Made by a program: the position numbers and the translations under genes | DNA from: Rubritalea profundi | GTDB taxonomy: Bacteria; Verrucomicrobiota; Verrucomicrobiia; Verrucomicrobiales; Akkermansiaceae | Reading direction: 5' to 3' | NCBI RefSeq assembly: GCF_002954445.1 | Contig: NZ_MQWA01000001.1 | Coordinates: 1,938,243 to 1,988,732, forward strand | Length of the DNA stretch: 50,490 bases | Part shown: in pieces, positions 23,332 to 38,342 of the stretch | How positions within the stretch are numbered: the stretch's first letter is position 1 | Layout of the letters: each line of letters opens with the position of its first letter | Notes under the pieces: model-generated | The model's input: the letters and a program-made list of their open reading frames with translations, nothing else | What the model was told of the DNA's origin: nothing | The model's database searches: none

Positions 23332-25954
23332 CTAGTGCGCTGCGAGGGCATCGGCTAGGAAGGGGGCGGTGCGGGAGTTTTTATTTTTAGCAACGCGCTC
23401 TGGTGTTCCTTGGGCGACGATGGTGCCGCCATGGTCGCCAGCTTCTGGTCCCATATCGATGAGGTAGTCGGCTTCTGCCATGATGGCGGTATGGTGTTCG
23501 ATGACCACTACCGTGTGGCCTTCGTCGACGAGGCGATGGAGGACCTCGATGAGCTTTCGCACGTCTTCCTGGTGGAGTCCTATGGTGGGTTCTTCTATCA
23601 GATAGAGGTTGGTATGTTGCCTCGTCATGTTGCGGATCGACTTGCGTCCCTTGGTGAGCTCGGCAACGAGTTTGAGTCGCTGGGCTTCACCTCCAGAGAG
23701 GCTTGGCGAGGGTTGACCTAGATTAAGGTAGCCGAGACCCGTTTGGTCTAACAACGAGAGCGTGCGGTGGAGTTTGGTGTGGTTTTTAAAGAACTCGGCG
23801 GCAGTCGAGATGTTCATTTTTAAAACGTCACCAATCGATTTCCCGTTGTAGAGAATTTCTAGAGTGGCATGGTTGTAGCGTTTTTCTGAGCAGGCGTGGC
23901 ATGGGACCCAAGTGGTGGGGAGGAAGTCCATTTCCAGTTTGATCCGTCCATTGCCCTTGCATTCTGGGCACTGGCCCTCGGCATTGTTGAAGCTGAAACG
24001 CGAGGCAGTGTAGCCACGCATGCGGGCTTCTGGGACTACCGCGAAAAGCTTGCGGATGTCATCGAGAACTTTGACGTAGGTAGCAGGGCAAGAACGTGAG
24101 GTTTTGCCGATAGGCGATTGATCGACTTCATAGCAATATTTTAGATTATCGAATCCAGTGGCTTTGGAAAAGTAGTTAGAGGTGTCTTTTGTTTGGGTCG
24201 TGGATTTCTTGATGGCGTGGGGGAGGGTGCCGCGCATGAGCGAGGATTTGCCGCAACCTGAGACTCCTGAGATAGTGGTGAGACGCTCTAGCGGGATACG
24301 GACGTCAATGTCCTTGAGGTTGTTGTGGCAACAGCCTGCCAGTTTGAGCCAGGCGTTTTTCTCCGCAATTTTGGGAATACTACGGCGCTTGCCTAACAAC
24401 GGGTGCTGTAGTGGAGCGGCGAAGGAGAGCAAGGTGGGGGAATCCGGGAACTCCTTGAGTGTCTTTTTGAGCTGTGATTTCTTGCCCGTGGTATTTGCCA
24501 CGACATTTCCTCCTAGGACGCCAGCTCCGGGCCCGAGGTCGATGAGTTGGGTGGCGCGACGCATGGTTTCTTCATCGTGCTCGACAACGAGCAAGGAGTT
24601 GCCACGAGCGCGGAGAGCCTCGAGGGTGTCGAGTAGTTGCTGGTTGTCGCGGGGGTGGAGTCCAATGGTTGGCTCGTCTAACACGTAAAGGACTCCAGTG
24701 AGGTTTGATCCTAGCTGGGCTGCGAGTCTGATGCGCTGGGATTCACCGCCGGAAAGCGTGTCGGCTGAGCGATCGAGTGAAAGGTAGTTGAGGCCGACTT
24801 TCTCTAGGAAACGAAGGCGTTGGATGATTTCTGGGAGGATGTCACGGGCTATGAGTTTGTCGCGGCCTATGAATTCCCATTGTTCTAACATCTCAGCAGC
24901 ATCAGTGACCGAGTGTCTGGATATGTGGGCGATGTTGTTGTCATTGATGAAAACGAAGCGGGCATTGTGGTTGACTCGATCGCCCTGGCATTCAGGGCAA
25001 GTGATGCGGATAGTGTCTTCATCAGGCTGGGAAGAATGACTGAGTTCTTCGGCGATTTCGGCTTCAGCCTCGGAGTTGAATTCGTTCGGCTTAGCTTTGC
25101 GTTTCTTCTTTTTCTTGCCGATGGATTGGGTGATAGAGCCATAGCCGCGGCAGTCTGTGCACCATCCGCGAGATGAGTTGAATGAGAAGTGGTGGGGGTC
25201 GAGCTCTGGGAATGAGATGCCAGTGACTGGGGAGACGCGGGCGGTGGAGTAGGTAGTGAGTTGCCAGTTGCCAGTGGTTAGTTCTTTTGCAACCGAGCAT
25301 TGCCCTTTTCCTAAGCTGAGAGCCTGGGTGAGTTGGTCGGCATTAGGTGTTTTATTATCGCAAATGACCGCAAAGATATCGTGTTCTTTGTAGCGGGCAA
25401 GGGCAGTAAATTCTTCTGTAGCGATGAGTTTCCCATCGACTAGGAGAAGCTCAATTCCTTTGCGCCCAGCGGTCGCAGCGACGTCGGTATGGTAGCCTTT
25501 ACGCCCGCGAATGAGTGGTGCGAGCAGGAGGCTGCGAGACTTGGTTTTGAAAGCGGCTTTAAGTTGCTTAGCAATTGCGTCTTGGGTTTGTGAGACCACG
25601 GCTTCGCCGGACTCTGGGCAATGTTGGGTGCCGAGCTTGGCATAGAGTAGGCGGAGGAAGTGGAAGATCTCGGTGACTGTGCCGACTGTTGATTTTCCAC
25701 CGCCGCGGGAGACGCGTTGCTCGATGGCCACAGTCGGAGGCAGGCCTTCGATTTTATCGATGTCGGGCTTCTCTAACTGACCTGCGAACTGGCGCGCGTA
25801 GGGCGACATGGAGTCGAGGAAACGTCGTTGGCCTTCAGCAAAAATGATGTCGAATGCTAGCGTGGATTTTCCTGATCCTGAGAGGCCGGTGACGACGACG
25901 AGTTCATCGCGCGGGATGGTGAGATCGAAGTTTTTGAGGTTGTGCTCGCGGGCT
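23332..25954 (-). CDS. uvrA: UvrA, C-terminal repeat of a double-length excinuclease subunit
   Basis: Second half of the giant UvrA. It carries two ABC ATPase modules: Walker [10 protein letters not shown] (only in the frame restored upstream of ATG 25809) and GVSGCGKSS, two signatures ([18 protein letters not shown]), and zinc-finger cysteines CPECKGNGR with CHACSEKRY about 20 residues later. The first ~50 residues lie in the other frame because one base is missing near 25955, so a protein starting at ATG 25809 would lack its first Walker A. Acts in nucleotide excision repair by damage recognition with UvrB. No transcription signal is seen between the halves. Confidence 0.85.
25254..25281 (-). 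repeat. In-frame heptanucleotide array in uvrA
   Basis: Four consecutive 7-mers on the + strand, TAGTGAG, TTGCCAG, TTGCCAG, TGGTTAG. Encodes [10 protein letters not shown] in UvrA, a loop-like insertion. Confidence 0.7.
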
Positions 25955-28889
25955 CAGAAATCTGGATGGAGTTTGAGTGAGGAGTGCTGAGTGATGAGTG
26001 TGAAGTGGAGTCAATTGCAAATGGCGATTGATCGTTGATGAGTGCTTTGGCCGTCTCGGTGTCAGTTGTTAGTATTTCTTCTGGCGAGCCATGGAAGACG
26101 ACTTGGCCACCGGCAGTTCCTGCGCCCGGTCCGATTTCGATGAGGTGATCGGCGGAGCGAATGACGTCGAGGTTGTGTTCGATCACCAGCAGCGTGTGGC
26201 CAGCATTGACGAGGGATTGGAAAACTTTAAGGAGTTTTTCAATGTCGATAAAGTGGAGTCCAGTGGTGGGTTCGTCCAGGATGAGGAGTTGGCCATTTTC
26301 GGTGACTTTTTTAGTTTTCGAGAGAAGTTGGCAGAGCTTGATGCGCTGGGACTCGCCACCAGAGAGGGTATTGAGTGGTTGTCCGAGTCTGAGGTAGCCA
26401 AGGCCGACGTCGAGGAGCGGCTTGAGAGTTCGGTGGATTTTAGATTTAAGAGTGAGAGTCTTAGACTTCTTCTCACCCTCTGGAATTTTAAAGAATTCGA
26501 GGGCTTCGGTGATGGTGAGGGCGAGTACGTCAGCGACGGATTTACCTCTCAGTTTGATTTCAAGAGCTGCAGAGTTGTAGCGTGTGCCTTCGCATTCTGG
26601 ACAGGTGATGTAGAGGTCGCTGAGAAACTGCATTTCTACCTTTTCAAAGCCATTTCCCCAGCAGCGCTCACATCGGCCAGCGCCAGAGTTAAAGGAGAAA
26701 TAGCCGGCTTTGAGGTTTTGCGCATCAGCTTCATCGGTGAGAGCAAAAAGTTCGCGGATCGCATCGAATGCTCCAGCATAGACGGCTGGGGTGGAGCGGG
26801 GTGTTTTGGTGAGAGCAGACTGGTCCACACGCTCGACACCGGAGATATGGTCGATGCCTTTGATCGATTTGATGAACGCTGGGTCTTCATCGGTGGTGTG
26901 GAGGAAGGCCTTCTGCAGGTTGCGGTGGATCACATCATTGGCCATGGTCGATTTACCGGAGCCTGACACCCCTGTTAGGCAAATGAATGTGCCGATGGGG
27001 AGCGCGATGTTCTGGTTGTCAATGTTGTGCTTGTAGGCACCTGTGAAGCTGAGCTTCTTGCGTGACTTCCGTCGCTTTGCGGGAGGCTTGATTGATTTCT
27101 CGCCAGTAAGGTAAGGGAGGGTAATCGATTGCGGATTGTTGATTGCTGATTGTTGGATGTCATGGAGAGGACCGTGGAAGGTGATGTTTCCTCCATGTTC
27201 ACCAGCAGCTGGGCCTATATCGATGAGGTTGTCAGCTTGGCGCATGACAGCCTCTTCGTGCTCGACGACGACGACGGTATTTCCTTTGTCACGCAGGTTG
27301 TGCATGATGGAGATGAGGCGGTTGACGTCGCGGGCGTGGAGGCCAACGGTAGGTTCATCCAGAACAAAGAGCGTGTTGGTGAGGGCTGCTCCGAGGCAGG
27401 TTGTTAGGTTGACGCGTTCGATCTCGCCACCTGATAGATTGCGGGCTGGGCGGTCGAGGGTGAGGTAGCCTAAGCCGACTTCATTGAGGTAGGACAAGCG
27501 CGCTTGGATTTCACTCATCGCGTGCTTCAGTGAACTCGATTCCTGGTTTTTGATTTCTGATTTGAGATTGTGGAACCAATCATTGAGATCTGTCAGTGGG
27601 ATGTGCCAGAGGTCGGGGAGGGATTTACCTTCGATCTTGAAGCAGAGAGCTTCTGGCTTGAGGCGGGTGGCATTGCACGCTGGACACTCGGTGTAGGCGC
27701 GGTAGCGGGAGAGGAAGACGCGGACGTGCATTTTGTACGCCTTGGTTTCCATCCAGTCAAAGAAGCCGCGAACTCCATACCATTTACCCGCTTTCCAGAG
27801 TTTGTCGGCATTGCCTTTTTCGCCTTTGAGCACCCATTCTTGATCCTTTTTAGGCAAGAGGTGCCAGGGGGTGTTAGTGTCGATGCCTTGGACGCGTGCG
27901 CAGCGAATGAGGTCGTCTTTGCACTCAGCTCCGCGTTCACCTTGAAAGGGTTTGATGACTCCTTCTTTGATCGTGAGAGTGGGGTCTTGGACAGATTTTT
28001 GAAGGTCGATTCCGATGATTCGGCCGAAGCCTCGGCACTCTGGGCAGGCTCCCAGTGGGGAGTTGAATGAGAACAGCGAGGCAGTGGGGGGGCGGAGTGT
28101 GAAACCGGTGTTTGGGTTGTGCCATTCCGTGCTGAACCCGCGGATTTGAGATTCTTTATTTGAATTTTGAAATTGGATCGAGCAATGGCCTTTGCCAAAG
28201 TTGAGTGCGGCTTCCAGCGCTTCGTGGAGTCGAGTCTTGTTAGCTTTTGTTAGTTTTATGCGATCTTGAATAATAACGGCCGATGCTTCGCCCCATGGAT
28301 TGCTGTCATCCGTGTCATCCGTGCGCAAGATTTCTTCACCTTTGAGAACTCTGAGGTAGCCTTGCTGGTTGAGAAAGTTGAAGACTTCGGCAGTGGTGGC
28401 GTTTTCAGAAATGGTGATGGGAAAGAGTACGAGGATGTTCTTGCCGGCATGTTGGGAGTATGTCCAATCTACGATTGAACTAGGCGAGTCTGGCTTGATT
28501 TCTTCTCCAGTATTTGGATCAAATGCTCTGGCTAGCTTTGGATAGATGACTTTGAGATAGTCATTGAGCTCGGTGAGGGTGCCGACGGTGGAGCGGGTGG
28601 AGCGAATAGAGTTTTTTTGCTCGATTGCAATTGCCGGCGGGATGTTGTCGATACGATCGACCGCGGGTTTGTCCATCCGGTCGAGGAATTGGCGGACGTA
28701 GGGCGAGAATGTCTCGACGTATCGGCGTTGGCCCTCGGCGTAGAGGGTATGAAATGCGAGTGACGACTTGCCGGATCCAGAGGGGCCAGTGATGACCGTG
28801 AACTGGTTTTTAGGGATGTCGAGATCGAGGTTTTTCAGGTTATGCTGGCGGGCACCTCGAATTTGGATCGCTGGAATGTTCTCTGGCAC
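25857..28889 (-). CDS. uvrA: UvrA, N-terminal repeat of a double-length excinuclease subunit
   Basis: First half of UvrA, 1010 codons before a stop caused by the shift near 25955. Walker A motifs GPSGSGKSS (about residue 35) and GVSGSGKST, signatures NLSGGEIER and TLSGGESQR, and zinc-finger cysteines [11 protein letters not shown]...CPECEGTRY are present, so this half alone is equivalent to a complete normal UvrA. Restoring one base after IQIS gives [10 protein letters not shown], fused to the second half as one protein of about 1852 aa, the tandem form known from Chlamydiae. The final ~30 residues as sequenced are out of frame. Upstream neighbour is the YiiX-like gene, 55 bases away. Confidence 0.9.
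25971..26042 (-). repeat. Heptanucleotide array at the UvrA repeat junction
   Basis: + strand 7-mers TGAGGAG, TGCTGAG, TGATGAG, TGTGAAG, TGGAGTC (25978-26012), with degenerate 7-mers continuing to about 26042. It encodes the Ser/His/Pro-rich linker between the two UvrA halves, next to the frameshift. Confidence 0.7.
27127..27161 (-). repeat. In-frame heptanucleotide array in uvrA
   Basis: Units on the + strand: GATTGCG, GATTGTT, GATTGCT, GATTGTT, GGATGTC. Encodes [10 protein letters not shown] in UvrA. Confidence 0.75.
27536..27570 (-). repeat. In-frame heptanucleotide array in uvrA
   Basis: Units on the + strand: TCGATTC, CTGGTTT, TTGATTT, CTGATTT, GAGATTG. Encodes [12 protein letters not shown] in UvrA. 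Confidence 0.6.
28142..28176 (-). repeat. In-frame heptanucleotide array in uvrA
   Basis: Units on the + strand: GGATTTG, AGATTCT, TTATTTG, AATTTTG, AAATTGG. Encodes [12 protein letters not shown] in UvrA. More degenerate than the others. Confidence 0.55.
28304..28321 (-). repeat. Two in-frame 9-bp repeats in uvrA
   Basis: TGTCATCCG occurs twice in tandem; encodes RTDDTDDS. Different unit length from the heptamer arrays, same gene. Confidence 0.6.
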
Positions 28890-28944
28890 GGCAGCAGTCT
28901 AGCCGTGATCTGGAGCGTGGCAAATCGGGAATCAATGATCCGCG

Positions 28945-29574
28945 TCATTTCCTAGGAACTTCGATGAGCAAAGGTGAATCAGCTAGGTCAGAGGGAGCGA
29001 CAGTGGGGGAATTTTTAGGTAAATTGTCGATGCTGCCAAAGCGCTTTTTAACAAGGGCCGCGACGTCGGGGTCGGAGAGATTATAGGACTCCATAGCTCG
29101 AGGTTCGCAGAGCTCGATGTCGGCGGCGTGCTTGTAAATTTTCCAGACCAACTCAGAGCAATAGAGTTTCTCATCATCCCAGAGGAATTTGAGGTCGTAG
29201 TTTTTGTTGAGTTGTTGTGCTCCCCATGTGTGAGCCAATGCGAGGCATTCAGGGGTGATAGCGGAAGAGTCTTTTAGGCGGCGAGCGTGAAAGCTCTTTG
29301 GGGCTCGTTTGATGAAGTCCTCTAATTTGGTGTATTTTACAGGTTGAACGGCCTCGAGCACCCACCATTGGTTCTCGCGCTTGAAAACCACACCCACATG
29401 GGTCCATTCTGAGTCAGTCGCGGCTTTGATGGCATTGGCTTGTCCTCGGTGGCCGCTTTGAAAGACGATGTCACCATCTTTGAGAGCATAGGGGGTGTGC
29501 TTGCTGTGTTGGCCATAGCCAAAAGAGAGGACGGCTGAAAGCAGAATGATGAGTGGGAAAAGGAGGCGCGTCAT
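28945..29574 (-). CDS. Secreted YiiX/permuted papain-like amidase family protein
   Basis: About 209 aa from the ATG at 29574; signal peptide MTRLLFPLIILLSAVLSFGYG. The permuted papain-like fold of the YiiX/YebB family (NlpC/P60-related) is indicated by KDGDIVFQSGHRGQANAIKAATDSEWTHVGVVF, with the catalytic His in WTHVGVVF and the Cys later in LYCSELVW. Such proteins are predicted cysteine amidases or peptidases of the cell envelope; substrate unknown. It lies between the broken kinase gene and uvrA on the same strand, possibly co-transcribed with uvrA. Confidence 0.8.
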   Translation of the reverse strand: MTRLLFPLIILLSAVLSFGYGQHSKHTPYALKDGDIVFQSGHRGQANAIKAATDSEWTHVGVVFKRENQWWVLEAVQPVKYTKLEDFIKRAPKSFHARRLKDSSAITPECLALAHTWGAQQLNKNYDLKFLWDDEKLYCSELVWKIYKHAADIELCEPRAMESYNLSDPDVAALVKKRFGSIDNLPKNSPTVAPSDLADSPLLIEVPRK

Positions 29575-29638
29575 AGATAAAAGAATCGAGTAATGTGAGG
29601 TGTTACTCACACAGTACTCGATAAATAATTAGATGTCC

Positions 29639-31495
29639 TTAGAAATCTATTCTAGCGTCTGGTACCCTTCTTCTCAGTTTTCGCTTTTTTTTGGGTTCGT
29701 CTCTTTCGATTTGAGGTTCCTCGACTACACGAGCTTTTGCGATGAGGAGGATTCTCTGCCATTCTTGTTTCACGAGTTCGATCTCTTTGGTGAGGTAAAG
29801 GATGGATTCGGAGTGAGCTTCAGTATCTAACTTTTCACATCTAGCTTGGCAGTTAGAAATGTAGACTTCACGCCAGACTTCGAGATCGGGAGCGTACTCA
29901 AGATCGATTGTGTTCTGCTTTAGGATGTGATCTGAGTGTGCCTCTTCGAGGAAATAAAGTGTTTTTCCGATTTTTTTCGGGATGCGCCCCTCAGTGAGGA
30001 TTTTCTTGTAGTAGGGTTTAGCTTCGAGCTCTGCGGTCGGTCTTTCCTCTGAGTCTAGCTTACGGATCACACGCTTAGCGTAACGGATATACCGGTCTGC
30101 ATTTTTAGCGAGGCTAGCATCGTAATCAGAAATAGACTCATCGGTGTTGTCGGAGATCAGCTTACGTATTTTATTGATGAAGGAGAGGTGGTCGAACTCT
30201 GGGATCGCTTGTGCCGCCGCAAGCGCTGCGGCTTTTTTCGCAGCCTGGGCTCTCTTTTCTCGTTTGGCCTGCTCCCTCTCGTTTGAACTCTCGAGCTTTT
30301 GCTCGTGCTGCGATTCTGTCTTCTTCTTCTGAAAGTTTGCGATTGTCCTGCAAGATCAGTTGTTGGCGCTTCATCTCCGCGCGATGTTTGGCTAGTCGGT
30401 CTTGTTCTTGTTTGACTTTAGCTGCTTTGAGATCGGCAGCTTTACGCAATTCAGTTTCTTTGGCCTGAGCTTTATGTTGTAGTTGGAGTTTAGCTTGAGC
30501 GAGGTTTTCTTTCTCGTTGGACGAGTGATTCAGCACAAAGGCAATGCCAGCAGCTACAAGGATGATGAGAGCAATGATCACAATCGCGATGCTTGGCGCT
30601 GAGGACGGCTGTTTTACCTGGATTCTAGTGTGAGGACGCGAGCTGGTGGCGGGTGCCGCAACTGGAGCCGCGAGTGGCTGGTTGGCGACTTGTTCAAGTC
30701 GGGCTGCAAGTTCATCGAGCTCTTCAGCCATTTCTCCAACGTTGGGGTAGCGTAAACTCCTTTGAGGGTGAATTGCTTTGAGGATAATAGTATCGAACGC
30801 TGGATCTGAATCACTGAGGGAAGATGCAGGGGATATACGGATGGGGTGGCATCTGGCCCGTGAGCAGCTCATAGAGCATGGCTCCTACGGAGAAAATATC
30901 AGCCCGCTGGTCGATGTTGTTTGGATCAGTGAGGACTTCTGGCGCTGTATAGCCTTTTGTTCCGTAGATCGTCCCACCATCGTGGGTGTTGCTGAGAGGC
31001 CGAGCCAAGCCAAAGTCGACAATCTTTGGGTGAGCAGAGTCATCAATAAGGACGTTAGCAGGTTTTATGTCACGATGGATAAGTCCAGCATCGTGCGCAT
31101 GTTCTAGTCCTCGGCACATGTCTGATATAAGACGGCTAGCCTCACTCATTTCGACACTTTTTCCGTGAATTAAATCGTAGAGTGAGCGACCTGGGGCTAA
31201 CTCCATCACAATGTAGAGCATTCCCTCAATGTTGCCGAAATCGAATACCTTAACGAGGTTCGGGTGATTGAGCATAGCCATCGCTTTGGCCTCGGTCTCG
31301 AAGCTGGAACTAAACTCTGGGTCTAGCCCCATTTCGTAGGGTAAAATCTTGATAGCCATTGGCCTATCAAGTGAGATTTGCGTGGCTCTAAAAACTGCAC
31401 CCATTCCACCTTGAGCGATGAAGTCCGTGACTTCGAAGGCTGGGAAAAAAGGGGTTGAGTTCTTCGGGTGTGGGTGGTTTGTCTCCTTGAGACAT
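29639..31495 (-). pseudogene. Ser/Thr protein kinase with coiled-coil tail, three frameshifts
   Basis: Three frames add up to one membrane kinase of about 617 aa starting at ATG 31495. Order: short N-terminal leader, Pkn2/Hanks-type kinase domain (AQGGMGAVF, AIKIL, HRDIKPANV, DFGLARP), a helix AIVIIALIILVAAGIAFVL, then a Lys/Glu-rich coiled coil and a C-terminal domain without a recognised family. The shifts are at a run of six T in the coding strand (about 31445-31450), a run of four C (30829-30832) and near 30274-30284. Removing one base at each restores a single frame, and the corrected length divides by three. Kinase residues are intact. Paralogue of the next gene. Confidence 0.75.
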
Positions 31496-31664
31496 CCTCT
31501 ATGCCCAGGTGAGATTAGCGGGGGGGGATGTGTTAGCTTGAGAAGCAGACATTATCCTACTTTCGCGAGATTGGAAACGCCGATTCGTGGGTGAGTTGTC
31601 TCAACCGGCAATTTGAAGCAAGTGTTTGACGCGAGGGAGCCGTCGGAAAGTAGAGAAAAACATG

Positions 31665-34211
31665 CTAGTTTAAGCTCTCGACAAAGGCTTGGGTGCCTGC
31701 TGAAGATACTTTGAGAGATGTCACCGCTTGTTTAGCAGCAGTGAGTTGGCCCTTTCTTTCGAGCTCTTGAATGATGTCTTTAAGCTTCTTCTGGTAGAGG
31801 AGGCGAATCTTATCGATAGTCTCGTCGTAAGTGGAGTCAATGCGGCCTTGTTTTTCGTAAGTGGCAATGGTGAGTTTTTCAATTTTAATGCTGCTCCCCA
31901 TGGACGCGACCCTTTTTTCTATCCTGTCTTTACCGCCGGTGATCTCTTTGATCCGTTGAACTGAGCGAGCATGACGGATTTTGTCAGTTCTGGTAAGCCC
32001 TTTAAGGTAGAGGTCCAAATCCCTCGTGATTCGTTCGACGTTTTTCGTGTGTTCTTCTTCGCGTTTATCGTAAGCGTCTTTGACGAGTTTAGAAGCCTTT
32101 GATTGGAGTGCCGAAAATTCGGAAGTACTGGCTCCACCACTTGTAGACGGTGTGATAGCGCCACCAGCAGGGGCGTCTTTACTCCACTCGAACAAAGTGT
32201 AGGGCACCCTTTTATCCTGTGAGGCGTCTCGCCACTTGCTTGAGGAGGAGGCAATGACTATGCTATTTTTATTTTTTGGGTAGTTGTCGTCCCAGTCGGC
32301 ACCTTTCCATTCTTCGCCACTGAGCCACTTCCACTCATTATTGTCGAGGATTCCGCCGATGCGGCAAAGTTGTCCAGAGGGGACGTTGGCAGTGATCAAT
32401 TCACTGAAGTATATAGTTTCGACTTCGTCCGACGGCGTTGCAATGTGTGCACCAGCCGAGGTGGCAAGCTTTTGAGCTTGGCCAAGAGTCAATGGGTATG
32501 GGCAGAGGTAGAAGCTGCGGCTGCCGAATATGAATGATCCTGGCGGGTAGAGAGGGGTTGGGTTATCGAGTGTTTCAGCTACGCGTTCCATTTGCTGATT
32601 GAGAGCTGCTGGCTGTGAGCTGTCGGCCTTCCACTCGATGAGAAACTTTGCTCTGTCGGTGATTTTCATAGCTGAGGCAAACATATCGCTATCGAGCTGG
32701 GCGAATGCGAGCTTGGAAGTTTTACGGATATCGATGGAGTCGTCGGTCCAAGGGGTGCCATCGGTCCATGCCCACTGTTCGTGTCCGGCAGTAGCGGCAC
32801 CAATCCAGACATTCTCACCGGATGGGATTGACTTACGTATTGCTGAGACGTCTGAGCTGGAGTCTACCGTTGCTAGCTGGGCGCCATGCTTGGCAGCCCA
32901 TAGTTGAGCCTGATGCCATGTCAGTTCTTTATCAATAAAGAGAACGAAACGTTCACCATTGTCGAGGGAGATTGTCTCCTTTGGCATTTCGTTCATTGGT
33001 CGATCCCCTTCGACTAAGCGAGTCCGTAGTTGTTCTAAGGTTTTTCGAGTGACGGTCTTGGTGACTACAGGGGGTTGCGCTGGCTCCTTCAGAGGAGGCT
33101 TCGATCGGGTACTTGCGAGTTTCTCGTTGTCCGCTTCAATTTGGGCAATTTGAGCTTCCCTCGTATCCTTCCATTGGAGGACTCCGTAAATGGCACCAAG
33201 CAGGATGATGATGATGATGAAATTGCGTGCATTGCTACCGCCTCTGCCAGATGTCACTTTTTTAGGAGGAGACTTGAGTAATGTTTTTGAGGTTCGAGCA
33301 GACTTAACATTTGAACTGGAGGCCAAGTTAGCAGGCTTTTTGGTGGCCGGTATGGTTAGAAAAGGTGATGCGCTAGACTTACTTTCTTGTTGTTTAGATT
33401 TACGGAAGACGTCTTCGAGATCGTCGGCAAAGTCCTCGGCTGAGGAGTAGCGTTGAGTCAGATCAGAAGCGATGGCCTTGCGGATGAGCCTGTCAATCAT
33501 CGGGTCGCATTTAGAATGCTTGGTGACTGGCTCATAGAGGTCGCCGGGAATTTTCCCTGCGAGTAGCTCATAGAGCATGACGCCCACAGCAAAAATGTCA
33601 GTGGCTGGACCTACTGTGTCGGGAGCGGCTAAAACTTCAGGGGCGGTGTAGCCTGGGGTGCCAAAAATGACTCCCGACTCGGTGTCGCCTGATGGTCGGG
33701 CGAGCCCGAAGTCGCCGATCTTGGGGATGCCCGAATGGGTGATGAAAATATTGGCAGGCTTGATGTCGCGGTGAAGAATTCCCGCCTCATGCGCATTTGC
33801 TAGGCCCCGGCAGATGGCGATGGTTGCTTCTAACGCACCTTGTTGATCAAGGTGACTTTCATAGGTTTTCTCATAGAGAGTGGCACCATCGACCAATTCC
33901 ATGACGATGTAGAGCATGTTATCAACCTCACCGAAGTCGAAGACGCTGATGAGGTTGGGGTGGTTGAGGCGAGCCATGAGCTTGGCTTCCTTGATGAAGG
34001 ACTCACGGAAGGACTCAGATTCTCCTAGTTCAGGTGGGAGCACCTTGACTGCCACCGGGCGGTCAAGCGAAGTCTGAGTTGCTTTATAGACAGCCCCCAT
34101 GCCACCTTTGGCTATGAGTTTCTCGAATTTATATGCAGGAAGAAGCTCAGCCAGGTGGTCGACACTCGGTGGAATGAACTCTAGAGGTTGGTGTGAATTG
34201 ACGTCAGACAT
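31665..34211 (-). CDS. Membrane Ser/Thr protein kinase with two C-type-lectin-like domains
   Basis: 848 aa. Kinase domain at about residues 28-268 with intact Lys56, HRD 147-149 and DFG 167-169. A basic linker is followed by one membrane helix at 331-346 (FIIIIILLGAIYGV). The outside part holds two C-type-lectin-like domains: residues ~415-528 (WHQAQLWAAKHGAQLATV, VWIGAATAG, FLIEW) and ~558-678 (QAQKLATSAGAHIATP, RIGGILDNNEWKWLSG, YTLFEW). Coiled-coil residues follow to the end. This suggests an envelope receptor kinase sensing a ligand through lectin-like folds (inference). Divergent from the globin gene. Confidence 0.88.
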   Translation of the reverse strand: MSDVNSHQPLEFIPPSVDHLAELLPAYKFEKLIAKGGMGAVYKATQTSLDRPVAVKVLPPELGESESFRESFIKEAKLMARLNHPNLISVFDFGEVDNMLYIVMELVDGATLYEKTYESHLDQQGALEATIAICRGLANAHEAGILHRDIKPANIFITHSGIPKIGDFGLARPSGDTESGVIFGTPGYTAPEVLAAPDTVGPATDIFAVGVMLYELLAGKIPGDLYEPVTKHSKCDPMIDRLIRKAIASDLTQRYSSAEDFADDLEDVFRKSKQQESKSSASPFLTIPATKKPANLASSSNVKSARTSKTLLKSPPKKVTSGRGGSNARNFIIIIILLGAIYGVLQWKDTREAQIAQIEADNEKLASTRSKPPLKEPAQPPVVTKTVTRKTLEQLRTRLVEGDRPMNEMPKETISLDNGERFVLFIDKELTWHQAQLWAAKHGAQLATVDSSSDVSAIRKSIPSGENVWIGAATAGHEQWAWTDGTPWTDDSIDIRKTSKLAFAQLDSDMFASAMKITDRAKFLIEWKADSSQPAALNQQMERVAETLDNPTPLYPPGSFIFGSRSFYLCPYPLTLGQAQKLATSAGAHIATPSDEVETIYFSELITANVPSGQLCRIGGILDNNEWKWLSGEEWKGADWDDNYPKNKNSIVIASSSSKWRDASQDKRVPYTLFEWSKDAPAGGAITPSTSGGASTSEFSALQSKASKLVKDAYDKREEEHTKNVERITRDLDLYLKGLTRTDKIRHARSVQRIKEITGGKDRIEKRVASMGSSIKIEKLTIATYEKQGRIDSTYDETIDKIRLLYQKKLKDIIQELERKGQLTAAKQAVTSLKVSSAGTQAFVESLN

Positions 34212-34324
34212 GGTACTATTAAAATACTTGGGGGTCGTGCCGGGAGAGTTACAATGACTTTACATAAAAGGTCAAGCCTTGCTCAATAGAGATTAAAAGG
34301 CTACAACACAACGACACGCTGGTT

Positions 34325-34732
34325 ATGGATGAAAGAGTAATTATGGATAGGGTAGGCCGTCAAGGCTTAGAACGCATGGTGAAGCTTTTTTATGCAAAGG
34401 TGCCTAGCGATGACATTCTAGGCCCGATGTACCCCAAGGGTGATATGCAGGGAGCTGAAGAGAGATTGTTTGATTTCTTGATGTTCCGTTTAGCTGGTGA
34501 TCCGACCTACACCGAGAAACGGGGACACCCGAGGCTTCGAGGTCGTCACATGCCATTTAAAATAGGTGCACGTGAGCGGGATCGGTGGGTGGAGCTGATG
34601 GCTGCTTCGATGCGTGAAGCTGAGATTCCAGAGGATGCGGCTGTGCAGCTAGATGCTTTCTTTTTACAGGTAGCAGATTTCATGAGAAATGTACCTGAAG
34701 GAAATGGGATTAACTTCAATCCGCGAGCGTGA
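34325..34732 (+). CDS. Truncated haemoglobin-like globin
   Basis: 135 aa, 2/2-fold (truncated) globin. The family signature FLMFRLAGDPTYTEKRGHPRLRGRHMPFKIG contains the conserved proximal-His region (GRHMPFKI) typical of group II truncated haemoglobins, and VELMAASMREAEIP continues the pattern. It binds haem and may handle O2 or NO (family knowledge). The start is the ATG at 34325; no Shine-Dalgarno seen. Transcribed away from the lectin-kinase gene. Confidence 0.85.
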   Translation: MDERVIMDRVGRQGLERMVKLFYAKVPSDDILGPMYPKGDMQGAEERLFDFLMFRLAGDPTYTEKRGHPRLRGRHMPFKIGARERDRWVELMAASMREAEIPEDAAVQLDAFFLQVADFMRNVPEGNGINFNPRA

Positions 34733-34867
34733 CAAGATCCGTGCGTTAGCACTGTAGTTGGATATCGAGCCAGAGTGCCCAATCGGAGCGGATGCCGCCG
34801 TCACTCCGATCGAATTGAGAGTCGTTTATTTGCATGCTGGTTCGACCGAATCAGCTGAGCTAGGTGC

Positions 34868-34993
34868 TCAGCACGGCACGATAGAGGAAGGAAATGCTCC
34901 GAAGGCTCTAAGGATGCCAAAGCAAGCTAGGCCAGCGACTACCCATGTGAGGACGCGATGGCTGGAGTGCTTTTTAGTTGGATTGCTTGGCAT
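34868..34993 (-). CDS. Possible small membrane protein (41 aa)
   Basis: Short frame from ATG 34993 with a Lys/His-rich N-terminus and one hydrophobic helix VLTWVVAGLACFGIL. An adjacent frame continues with protein-like sequence (AEHLAQLIRSNQ), so it may be longer with a 1-base shift. The gap 34733-35069 holds nothing else I can identify. Weakly supported. Confidence 0.2.
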   Translation of the reverse strand: MPSNPTKKHSSHRVLTWVVAGLACFGILRAFGAFPSSIVPC

Positions 34994-35069
34994 ATTAATG
35001 AGAGGCGAATGTGACCCCTTTATTCCCAGAAAAGTGCGGGAGGGGGGGCTCTAGTGAGTGAGTCTAATG

Positions 35070-35693
35070 CTAGCGAACTCGACCTGAGCGTCGGGCTGAT
35101 TGGTACTGGTCGATACCAGAGACGATACCTTCTGCAATTTTTTGACGGTAGTTGCCTTTTTTACAGGCACGGCATTCGCTTGTGTTGGTGAGGAAGCCGC
35201 CTTCAAATAGGATTGCTGGGTTCTTGGCATTACGAATGACGTAGTAGCGGGCGTGTTTGACCTTGCGGTCGTTGGCTCTAGTTTTGCGTAAAATGGCATT
35301 GTGGACGTATTGAGCCAGTGGCTTGGAGTGCGACGTGTAATAAAAGGTTTCAATCCCCTTGGCTGCGCGTCGGTATGTACAGTTATAGTGAATTGAGACG
35401 AAAATGGAGTTGCCGTAACGGTTACCGATGGATGCTCGCTTTTGTAGCGATAAGAAAACATCACTAGTGCGGGTCATGCGGGTGCGGTAGCCTTTTTTCT
35501 GGAGCATGTACTCCACCCGTTTCGCTGTGTCGAGGGCGAGGTGCTTCTCATAGACCTTGCCGTAACTGCCGCCATAGTCTTTTCCGCCGTGTCCCGCATC
35601 GATCACAACGGTGCTAAATGCCCTAGCTTGGCTGATTCCATGGCTGGCGAACCATAGGCAAGTGATGAATGAAATGAGGCGTGTTAGGGGCAT
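35070..35693 (-). CDS. N-acetylmuramoyl-L-alanine amidase (Amidase_3)
   Basis: 207 aa, secreted zinc amidase cleaving the MurNAc-L-Ala bond of peptidoglycan. A signal-like N-terminus precedes VVIDAGHGGKDYGG (zinc-binding His), with a basic YRTRMTRTSD segment, FVSIHYNC (second zinc His) and AILFEGGFLTN (catalytic Glu). An internal cysteine-bearing segment, SECRACKKGNY, is less usual. Single domain without SH3 or LysM repeats. The start is at 35693. Confidence 0.9.
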   Translation of the reverse strand: MPLTRLISFITCLWFASHGISQARAFSTVVIDAGHGGKDYGGSYGKVYEKHLALDTAKRVEYMLQKKGYRTRMTRTSDVFLSLQKRASIGNRYGNSIFVSIHYNCTYRRAAKGIETFYYTSHSKPLAQYVHNAILRKTRANDRKVKHARYYVIRNAKNPAILFEGGFLTNTSECRACKKGNYRQKIAEGIVSGIDQYQSARRSGRVR

Positions 35694-35888
35694 TGAATCC
35701 TTTTAGAGTAGGCTGTGTGGTGATGCGCCTAGGGCGCAAAGAGCTGACAATCAACTCGCATAATCAACAGCATCTGTCAAGAAATCAGCTCTAGCAGCAT
35801 CCAAATAATCAGGTAATTAAAGAGTTTTAGCTTTCAGGAATTATTAAGTTTCTTTGGTACGCTTCAATAACCCGCGAAACATGGGTTA

Positions 35889-36131
35889 CTATGACTGGTT
35901 AGCTGAAGCGCTTTCAAGTGCCGGCCAACGGCTGAGAGCGAGTATGAATAACAAAACTAGAAGGCCTCCTGGCACAAAGAGTAGCAAGGAGAGAGCTGGG
36001 CTTAAGCCTGCCTTTTTGAGAATCATCCAAAAGGGGAGCATGAAGACTCCCGCGAAAATTGTACTAACCATGAGCATCAGAATGATTTCACCACCTTGGG
36101 GCAAGGAGATAAAAGCGATCGGATCTAACAT
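35889..36131 (-). CDS. Small integral membrane protein
   Basis: 80 aa with two hydrophobic helices separated by KKAGLSPA. The pattern FWMILKKAGLSPALSLLLF followed by FILALSRWPA is seen in small bacterial membrane proteins of unknown function. It stands alone on the minus strand between the amidase and the pyrophosphatase gene; no regulatory signal seen. Confidence 0.7.
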   Translation of the reverse strand: MLDPIAFISLPQGGEIILMLMVSTIFAGVFMLPFWMILKKAGLSPALSLLLFVPGGLLVLLFILALSRWPALESASANQS

Positions 36132-36267
36132 GTGGGAATGTTAGTGAGCTAAAGGGGAGTCACTTTTGCCTCCACAGCGGTCCCATCTTCTGGAGAGAAG
36201 GCTGATGGCTAACAGGACGACCGTGATAGTGATGGATTACATGGTTAGAAGACTGTGCAATGGGATG

Positions 36268-37248
36268 TTAGAGGAGCCCAGCAATCACAAGTGAAACAAT
36301 GGCCATGACATTGATGATGATGTTCATGGATGGACCAGAAGTATCTTTGAAGGGGTCACCGACGGTGTCACCGACGACGCACGCGCTGTGGACGTCTGAG
36401 CCTTTACCCCCCAAGTTTCCATCTTCCACGTATTTCTTGGCATTGTCCCAGGCTCCACCGGCGTTCGACATCATCAGAGCCATGAGAATACAGCCGAGTA
36501 GTGCTCCGACAAGAGTTCCGGTGAGGGCGATGGCTCCGGTGCCATTGATGGCATTGAATCCAAATCCGACGACAATAGGAGTTCCCACGGCTAGCAAGGC
36601 GGGGAGGATCATTTTTTTAGTGGCGGCCCTAGTTGCTATATCAATACATTTATCAGTCTCGGGTTCCGCTGTTCCTTCGAGTAAGCCCGGGATGTCACGG
36701 AACTGGCGACGGATTTCGTTGATCATTTCAAAGGCGGCTTCACCCACCGCAGTCATGGTGATGGCTCCATTGAGGAAAGGGACAATGCCGCCGATGAAGA
36801 GGCCGACAAAGAAGGTGGCGAGTATGGAATTATCTGAAAGGTTGAGTGAAATGTCAGATTTCTGGATGAATGCTGTGATCAATGCAAGTGCTGATAGCCC
36901 TGCTGCGCCAATGGCAAATCCTTTTCCTATAGCAGCGGTGGTGTTGCCTACCGCGTCGAGACCGTCTGTGATTTTACGCGTTTCCGGCCCCATTGCTGCC
37001 ATCTCAGCGATGCCACCAGCATTGTCGGCTACTGGGCCGTAGGCGTCGATAGCCATTGTAATACCAACAGTTCCTAACATGCCGACTGCTGCGAGACCGA
37101 CTCCGTAGAGTCCCATAAAATGGAAGGAGACACTGATCGTGACGGCGAGCGTGAGTAGTGGAATGGCGACTGAACGCATGCCGAGGGCGAGCCCCGCGAT
37201 CATGAGGGTGGCGACCCCTGTCTCCGCTTGTTTAGCGAGATCTCTCAC
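36268..37248 (-). CDS. hppA: Membrane pyrophosphatase, C-terminal part (frameshifted gene)
   Basis: C-terminal 326 residues of the membrane-bound pyrophosphatase, joined to the upstream part by one missing G. Contains DGLDAVGNTTAAIGKGFAIGAA, where the Ala after GNTTA and Gly after AI match the potassium-dependent subgroup, and near the end the phosphate-binding segment NAGGAWDNAKKY and GDTVGDPFKDTSGPS. Together with 37245-38342 it makes 691 aa, the usual family length. Pumps H+ or Na+ across the membrane using PPi; ion choice cannot be settled here. Confidence 0.9.
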   Translation of the reverse strand: MRDLAKQAETGVATLMIAGLALGMRSVAIPLLTLAVTISVSFHFMGLYGVGLAAVGMLGTVGITMAIDAYGPVADNAGGIAEMAAMGPETRKITDGLDAVGNTTAAIGKGFAIGAAGLSALALITAFIQKSDISLNLSDNSILATFFVGLFIGGIVPFLNGAITMTAVGEAAFEMINEIRRQFRDIPGLLEGTAEPETDKCIDIATRAATKKMILPALLAVGTPIVVGFGFNAINGTGAIALTGTLVGALLGCILMALMMSNAGGAWDNAKKYVEDGNLGGKGSDVHSACVVGDTVGDPFKDTSGPSMNIIINVMAIVSLVIAGLL

Positions 37249-38342
37249 AGGTTTACCACCGGTGTAATGCTCGGTGACGAGGCCGATGATGATCCCCCCA
37301 CTGCGCCAGCGAAGACGGCAAAAGCTGGATTGTTGCTCAGGCCCATTTGGGCGCAGGTGATAAAGGAGGCGATGATGAAAAGAATGGCGGAACCTATCGT
37401 TCCGATCCTCAATGCGGCCGCAGGTTCTTTTGCCGCCATCAGCTTGACCATGATGATTCCAAGGACCGAGCAGAGGAGTCCCACTGTGGTGAGAGCCAGC
37501 GGCAGGTACATCAGCGTTTCCGCTTTGTCTGCTAGGATGCCGGCTTTTTCAAAGAGTTCGGCGCTGCCGTTTTGGGAAATTCTGGCACCCGCTGCGGCGG
37601 CAATCGCGATGGTGGCAATTTGCGCACCGCAATAGGACTCGAAAATGTCTGAGCCCATTCCGGCAACATCTCCCACATTGTCACCTACGTTGTCGGCAAT
37701 CACACCTGGGTTGCGCGGGTCGTCTTCCGGGATGCCTGCTTCTAGTTTGCCTACGAGGTCAGCTCCCACATCTGCCGCCTTGGTGAAAATTCCACCACCG
37801 ACACGGTAGAAAAGGGCGACGAGCGAAGCTCCCATCGCAAAGCCTTCCATGATTTCTGCCACGTGGATTTTGTGGTCACCTGTGGCGAAGGCCCAGAATA
37901 AAGTTCCTAGACCAATCAAGCCCATCGAAGCCACCGTGAGGCCCATAACCGAACCGCCGAAGAAAGCGACACTCAGCGCGGAGGCTGCCCCTTCATTTTT
38001 TGCAGCTATCGTGGTGCGGACATTGGCTTTAGTCGCGGTGTACATTCCTATGAAGCCCGCAAGCGAGGAGGCCAAGCAGCCAAAAATAAAGGCAATCGCT
38101 TGGTACGTGGCATACTCTGGATTTTGAAAAACAGATATTAAGGTGGCAATAACTACCGCAAACAGAGAAATCAACATGAATTCACGCTTCATGAACATCA
38201 TGGCTCCCTTGTGGATTTTCTCGGCGATCTCAGCGACCTTTCCCTCCCCTCCATCCTTTTTGATAACCGTCCTTAGGATGACTCCTGCAATGGCTAATCC
38301 AATAAGGCCTGCGATGGGGGTGAGAATGTAATTGTTCGTCAT
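37245..38342 (-). CDS. hppA: Membrane pyrophosphatase, N-terminal part (frameshifted gene)
   Basis: N-terminal 365 codons, membrane-spanning, with the pyrophosphate/Mg-binding stretch KAADVGADLVGKLEAGIPED, then NPGVIADNVGDNVGDVAGMGSD. The frame stops at GSSSASSP instead of continuing GIIIGLVTEHYTGGK; adding one G to the run of six G on the coding strand (+ strand 37290-37300) restores it. Because the enzyme is otherwise perfect, the shift is likely an artefact. The start is the ATG at 38342. Confidence 0.9.
   Translation of the reverse strand: MTNNYILTPIAGLIGLAIAGVILRTVIKKDGGEGKVAEIAEKIHKGAMMFMKREFMLISLFAVVIATLISVFQNPEYATYQAIAFIFGCLASSLAGFIGMYTATKANVRTTIAAKNEGAASALSVAFFGGSVMGLTVASMGLIGLGTLFWAFATGDHKIHVAEIMEGFAMGASLVALFYRVGGGIFTKAADVGADLVGKLEAGIPEDDPRNPGVIADNVGDNVGDVAGMGSDIFESYCGAQIATIAIAAAAGARISQNGSAELFEKAGILADKAETLMYLPLALTTVGLLCSVLGIIMVKLMAAKEPAAALRIGTIGSAILFIIASFITCAQMGLSNNPAFAVFAGAVGGSSSASSPSITPVVNL

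Follow-up and report, generated by a model that had tools for sequence, protein, structure and literature searches.

A putative receptor Ser/Thr kinase with two C-type-lectin-like domains in Rubritalea profundi and related Akkermansiaceae

Genes and features at the locus

The window, i.e., the whole stretch of DNA analysed here, comprises 50,490 nucleotides of the Rubritalea profundi genome, and all positions without a locus number refer to it. The gene of interest encodes a kinase domain, one membrane helix, two C-type-lectin-like domains (CTLD1 and CTLD2) and a helical tail. It lies among the following features:

23332-28889, minus strand: long uvrA gene, downstream, present here as two open reading frames (UvrA_inter in 23332-25809; both frames match one relative protein)
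28945-29610: Peptidase_C92 (YaeF/YiiX-like) gene, flanked by uvrA and the second kinase (Pfam)
29639-31473, minus strand: second kinase with a helix and a coiled tail, no CTLD seen, split over three frames (tblastn with the L094 relative, three-frame reading)
31665-34211, minus strand: whole CTLD kinase gene, ATG start, 848 amino acids, in the order kinase, membrane helix, CTLD1, CTLD2, helical tail (open reading frame and translation, Pfam, AlphaFold2)
31668-32129, minus strand: helical hairpin tail, residues 695-848 (AlphaFold2 of the tail alone)
32178-32552, minus strand: CTLD2, approximately residues 554-678, two cysteines, degenerate calcium motifs YPK ... WRD (AlphaFold2, PDB profile search, VIA-align, alignment, count)
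32625-32975, minus strand: CTLD1, approximately residues 413-529, no cysteine and no calcium motif (Pfam 429-491, AlphaFold2, PDB profile search, motif and cysteine count)
33171-33230, minus strand: single membrane helix, approximately residues 328-347 (hydropathy)
33231-33401, minus strand: cytoplasmic linker, residues 271-327, weakly conserved (translation, alignment)
33402-34133, minus strand: Hanks-type kinase domain, approximately residues 27-270 (Pfam 27-237, catalytic residues, nearest solved PknA/PknB)
34325-34732, plus strand: truncated (bacterial-like) globin gene, divergent (Pfam PF01152, 9.5e-24)

The reading frame of the CTLD kinase gene is open throughout, in contrast to several neighbouring genes. 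The adjoining paralogous kinase reported by the sequence-only reading is present, but in the assembly it is broken over three frames; an intact relative is found at L094 10994-12793. The H+-pyrophosphatase gene at 36268-38342 consists of two open reading frames covering positions 1-315 and 334-645 of the model, and uvrA, which is divided here, forms one open reading frame of 1806-1937 amino acids in the relatives where it is uncut by the region edge. Breaks in three genes so close together, several of them of housekeeping type, raise the suspicion of indel errors in the assembly, with real decay as the alternative. A 143-residue open reading frame at 38705-39136 matches the first 96 of 301 Sulfatase positions and then ends, and is probably a broken gene.

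The R. profundi genome contains 14 Pkinase matches and only one Lectin_C match at E <= 0.001, namely CTLD1 of the gene described here. The protein has diverged more outside the membrane than inside: over 28 relatives, in two of which the tail is cut or missing, the median identity to the R. profundi protein is 53% for the kinase, 28% for CTLD1, 27% for CTLD2 and 19% for the tail.

Kinase domain

The Pkinase match covers residues 27-237 (Pfam, E 3e-46), and the nearest solved kinases by sequence are PknA and PknB. The catalytic set is complete, comprising K56, E75, H147-R148-D149, N154, D167-F168-G169, E192, D205 and R254. Judged by these residues, which include the lysine and the HRD, asparagine, DFG and APE positions, the domain is a Hanks-type Ser/Thr kinase, and its earlier description as active-looking agrees with them. 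The model NF033483 for PknB/StkP PASTA kinases scored 248 bits over residues 27-364, under its cut-off of 450 bits.

K56, D149 and D167 are all kept in 44 of the 50 CTLD copies that carry a kinase. Among the other six, four are cut before K56, L072 is without D149 and L067/L083 is without both aspartates. The L072 gene (7915-10476) has thus lost the HRD aspartate and retained the DFG motif, and in the L083 gene (431-4116) both catalytic aspartates are lost. The loss of the HRD aspartate in these two CTLD-bearing kinases suggests that in some species the protein may act without catalysis. At L083 a second pseudokinase-like gene starts 14 bases further on and reaches the contig end, and more pseudokinase-like open reading frames of approximately 300 residues each were observed at L124-L126.

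Membrane topology

Hydropathy analysis of the R. profundi protein revealed one hydrophobic stretch at about residues 328-347 and no second one. The helix is present in all 29 aligned members, 28 of which have no second helix. One helix between kinase and sensor is the layout of a single-pass receptor kinase, in which the kinase would lie inside. The local charge in the R. profundi protein is +4 before the helix and -4 after it, but across the family the charge comparison favoured the kinase-inside topology in only 15 of 29 members. An outer membrane is expected in Verrucomicrobiota, so that the part beyond the inner membrane would be periplasmic. Since the kinase requires ATP, and given the single helix and the charge on either side of it, the CTLDs and the tail should be located in the periplasm.

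Fold of the outer region

The Pfam search gave a Lectin_C match with E 1.1e-9 and a score of 39.4 bits (cut-off 22.6), in two stretches at a loose limit. A profile of both outer domains built from 28 family sequences matched the tandem CTLDs of lymphocyte antigen 75 in the PDB at 1.2e-59. The profile of CTLD1 only matched Mincle (1.3e-13) and CD69 (2.3e-13), and that of CTLD2 only likewise matched solved CTLDs.

The AlphaFold2 model of residues 385-848, based on 28 family sequences, had a mean pLDDT of 91.3 and a pTM of 0.64, with residues 679-695 below pLDDT 50; the two latter values indicate that the relative placing of the outer parts is not fixed. In the Foldseek comparison the model matched the tandem CTLDs of Endo180/uPARAP and the mannose receptor with probability 1.00 over approximately 290 columns. 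These tandem rows, however, had TM values of 0.21-0.26 and rmsd of 16-19, whereas the single-CTLD rows had rmsd of 2-4 and target TM of 0.6-0.8. The two-domain arrangement therefore differs from that of Endo180 and the mannose receptor, and only the single domains superpose. VIA-align, whose rows are dominated by CTLD2, aligned this domain with a PLA2R CTLD (Z 18.5, 115 residues, rmsd 1.6). Because each domain alone matches CTLDs and the single domains superpose well, both are assigned to this class, and residues 413-678 have, according to the predicted fold and the profiles, a C-type-lectin-like fold.

Residues 695-848 were predicted as a helical hairpin with pLDDT 94 when the tail was modelled alone. 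With the tail alone as query, the best PDB profile match had E 0.025 and Foldseek gave none at E <= 0.001; this does not in itself make the hairpin a new fold. The tail was also matched in kinases without CTLDs, at L096 8648-10336 (E 5e-7) and weakly at L075 8640-10493 (E 3e-4), and it is accordingly a separate outer module.

The sequence-only reading had proposed a receptor kinase with one helix and two lectin-like folds. This architecture is well supported by Pfam, hydropathy, PDB profiles, AlphaFold2 and Foldseek, and profile search and structure prediction of the outer region returned the CTLD fold and no different one. The two lectin-like domains do not account for the whole outer part, as the hairpin had been overlooked.

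Distribution

The tandem-CTLD profile matched 114 of 195 Akkermansiaceae genomes at E <= 0.001, including that of R. profundi, and in 102 of the 195 sampled the best match reached E <= 1e-75. In the phylum sample 54 of 288 genomes matched the profile, with E <= 1e-75 in seven, all of them Akkermansiaceae; the best match outside this family was 2.9e-23 and covered one domain. Of 52 distinct tandem-CTLD sequences, 50 are accompanied by a kinase match within their piece; the remaining two are pieces of 482 and 501 residues. The kinase-lectin fusion is thus a recurrent architecture across Akkermansiaceae and no one-off. The phylum sample also provided 23 non-tandem loci. A same-frame kinase match was found in seven of these (L148, L149, L150, L153, L156, L157 and L165) and in none of the remaining 16, some of the matches being weak owing to flanks limited to 1.5 kb. 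Lectin_C was matched at E <= 0.001 in none of 14 control genomes, and a scan of viral contigs yielded no match.

Locus organisation in relatives and kinase phylogeny

The comparison covered 37 regions, i.e., that of R. profundi and 36 fetched around kinases, several of them short contigs and some genomes having more than one region. The globin cluster occurs in 17 of the 37, the long uvrA in 15 and both in nine, including R. profundi. A second kinase is likewise a recurrent neighbour of the CTLD kinase. A receptor kinase lies directly upstream of a same-strand uvrA (1806-1882 amino acids) in several genera (L073, L103, L086, L087, L088, L089 and L104). With mechanically chosen start codons, 15 bases separate the CTLD kinase gene from uvrA in L073 and L103, a spacing suggestive of co-transcription of the two genes at these loci.

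In three genomes of other genera (L075, L079 and L080) a kinase without a Lectin_C match precedes uvrA directly. Likewise, a genome of the same genus (G010, locus L096) has, beside the globin gene, a kinase with a membrane helix and the helical tail but without CTLDs. These CTLD-less relatives at the same kind of locus indicate that the CTLDs are dispensable for the function of the locus. In the kinase tree the L096 kinase is the nearest to that of R. profundi and groups with it with support 100/97, on a branch that includes a fairly long row (0.73).

The CTLD kinases do not form a single clade in the same tree, which requires 13 label changes, at least six of them forced by well-supported branches. 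A number as low as 13 was obtained in 65 of 500 label shuffles, so that the CTLD label is hardly clustered on the tree. The CTLD pair resembles a module that can be removed, and the outer parts change on a kept frame of kinase, helix and tail; the kinase tree does not separate loss, gain and exchange of the pair. A fuller version, in which a tandem CTLD cassette has been repeatedly gained, lost or replaced at a globin-kinases-uvrA locus and serves as a periplasmic sensor of proteins or the cell wall, possibly coupled to the DNA-repair gene, appears rather unlikely as a whole.

Sugar-binding motifs and possible ligand

The sequence-only reading had suggested a carbohydrate-sensing receptor kinase, i.e., CTLDs that bind oligosaccharides or the glycan of peptidoglycan and thereby switch the kinase. 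The CTLD fold is common to the sugar-binding proteins DC-SIGN, Mincle and langerin. Calcium-dependent sugar-binding CTLDs carry the motif pair [EQ]P[ND] and W[ND]D, and conserved disulfide cysteines are typical of them. In CTLD1 each of the two motifs occurs in one of 52 distinct family copies; CTLD2 keeps [EQ]P[ND] in three and W[ND]D in 27. The complete pair was found in none of the 52 copies in either domain, the R. profundi copy included, where CTLD2 has YPK and WRD and CTLD1 has no such motif. This result bears on the calcium site and not on calcium-independent sugar binding. At the [EQ]P[ND] position of CTLD2 a looser [SA]PD is present in 22 of the 52 copies, suggesting that this loop is not free to vary, though the classical site is absent. 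Moreover, the R. profundi CTLD1 has no cysteine and CTLD2 has two, and in the family alignments no cysteine column is invariant or nearly so.

An Amidase_3 (N-acetylmuramoyl-L-alanine amidase) gene is located near the CTLD kinase at 35070-35693 and also in the regions of five relatives, and genes for an M23 peptidase and OmpA are present at L086. The amidase gene, the shared fold and the single motifs kept in CTLD2 could be read in favour of carbohydrate sensing, and the nearby cell-wall genes in some genomes hint faintly at a cell-wall ligand. Large glycans are unexpected in the periplasm, which counts against carbohydrate sensing. The structural and profile matches include CD69, NKp80 and LLT1, which are protein-binding CTLDs. 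Given these matches and the missing motif pair, carbohydrate sensing is unsupported, and we regard it as improbable. With a periplasmic outer part and no classical calcium site, a protein or cell-wall ligand seems likelier than an environmental polysaccharide, and we infer that the ligand is more likely a protein or a component of the cell envelope than a free sugar.

Proposed mode of action

On balance, the protein is probably a single-pass receptor Ser/Thr kinase of the inner membrane, with the kinase in the cytoplasm and the CTLDs and hairpin forming a periplasmic sensor that putatively switches it upon ligand binding. The CTLD pair would bind its ligand via the loop surface without a classical calcium site, and either ligand binding or the helical tail may alter receptor dimerisation. 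The altered dimerisation would lead to activation-loop autophosphorylation in trans, which is the mode of activation of PknB/StkP-type kinases. The signal could then pass to cytoplasmic substrates and perhaps also to the second kinase encoded alongside. The CTLD pair would act as a replaceable sensor cassette between the kept membrane helix and the kept tail.

The outer part might instead be mostly a scaffold, with the CTLDs and the tail tethering the kinase to a periplasmic partner and no ligand switching. The long helical tail fits such a role, as does the loss of the HRD aspartate from two CTLD-bearing members, but the catalytic residues kept in 44 of 50 copies, R. profundi included (four of the other six being cut before K56), argue against it, and we regard it as unlikely. 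It is very improbable that the protein is a hypervariable sensor diversified by a retroelement like cyanobacterial kinase-CLec proteins, even though the functional domain found most often in cyanobacterial CLec retroelement targets is a kinase (PMC7517822, excerpts), as the CTLD region is not repeated within 28900-36300 (the only repeat, 30848/33547, being kinase to kinase), the reverse transcriptase matches lie at 2.70 and 2.72 Mb, away from the kinase gene, and the 20 kb around each share only chance-level stretches with it (best E 0.085); a template/variable repeat with a nearby reverse transcriptase was thus not found, and this candidate was rejected.

Comparison with known systems

The proposed receptor kinase resembles the PknB/StkP PASTA kinases in having an N-terminal Hanks kinase, a linker, one helix and an outer sensor. 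It differs from them in that PASTA domains are absent (Pfam, E <= 1) and replaced by the CTLDs and the hairpin, and in scoring under the NF033483 cut-off. Both the profile search and Foldseek place the mannose receptor family (Endo180, DEC-205, PLA2R) closest among tandem CTLDs of solved structure, with 11-16% identity to the R. profundi domains and a different two-domain arrangement; members of this family are animal endocytic receptors without a kinase.

The sulfatase-modifying (FGE-like) domain belongs to the C-type-lectin fold class. Planctomycetota kinases with such a periplasmic domain share the single span and the periplasmic accessory domain with the R. profundi protein but use another domain family (PMC11032199, excerpts). 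The word 'lectin' does not occur in the main text of PMC11032199, whose supplementary list contains 307 architectures and includes Verrucomicrobiota outgroups. In cyanobacteria, Ser/Thr kinases that carry a CLec domain at the C-terminus and are targets of diversity-generating retroelements likewise join a Hanks kinase to a presumed ligand binder of C-type-lectin fold (PMC7517822, excerpts). Their CLec has a retroelement-diversified region (PMC7517822, excerpts). The R. profundi protein instead combines a pair of Lectin_C-type domains with a helical tail, and no retroelement lies near its gene.

Among the open-licence literature matches listed, none describes a CTLD receptor kinase from Verrucomicrobiota. 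To our knowledge, the inputs of kinases in Akkermansiaceae are unstudied. As sister species have kinases at the same locus that either carry or lack the CTLD pair, the role of the sensor is directly testable.

In plant C-type lectin receptor-like kinases the order of the domains is reversed relative to the bacterial CTLD kinase. These plant proteins likewise combine a C-type lectin domain and a kinase in one receptor (PMC7293193). By architecture, bacteria thus gain a counterpart of lectin-type receptor kinases.
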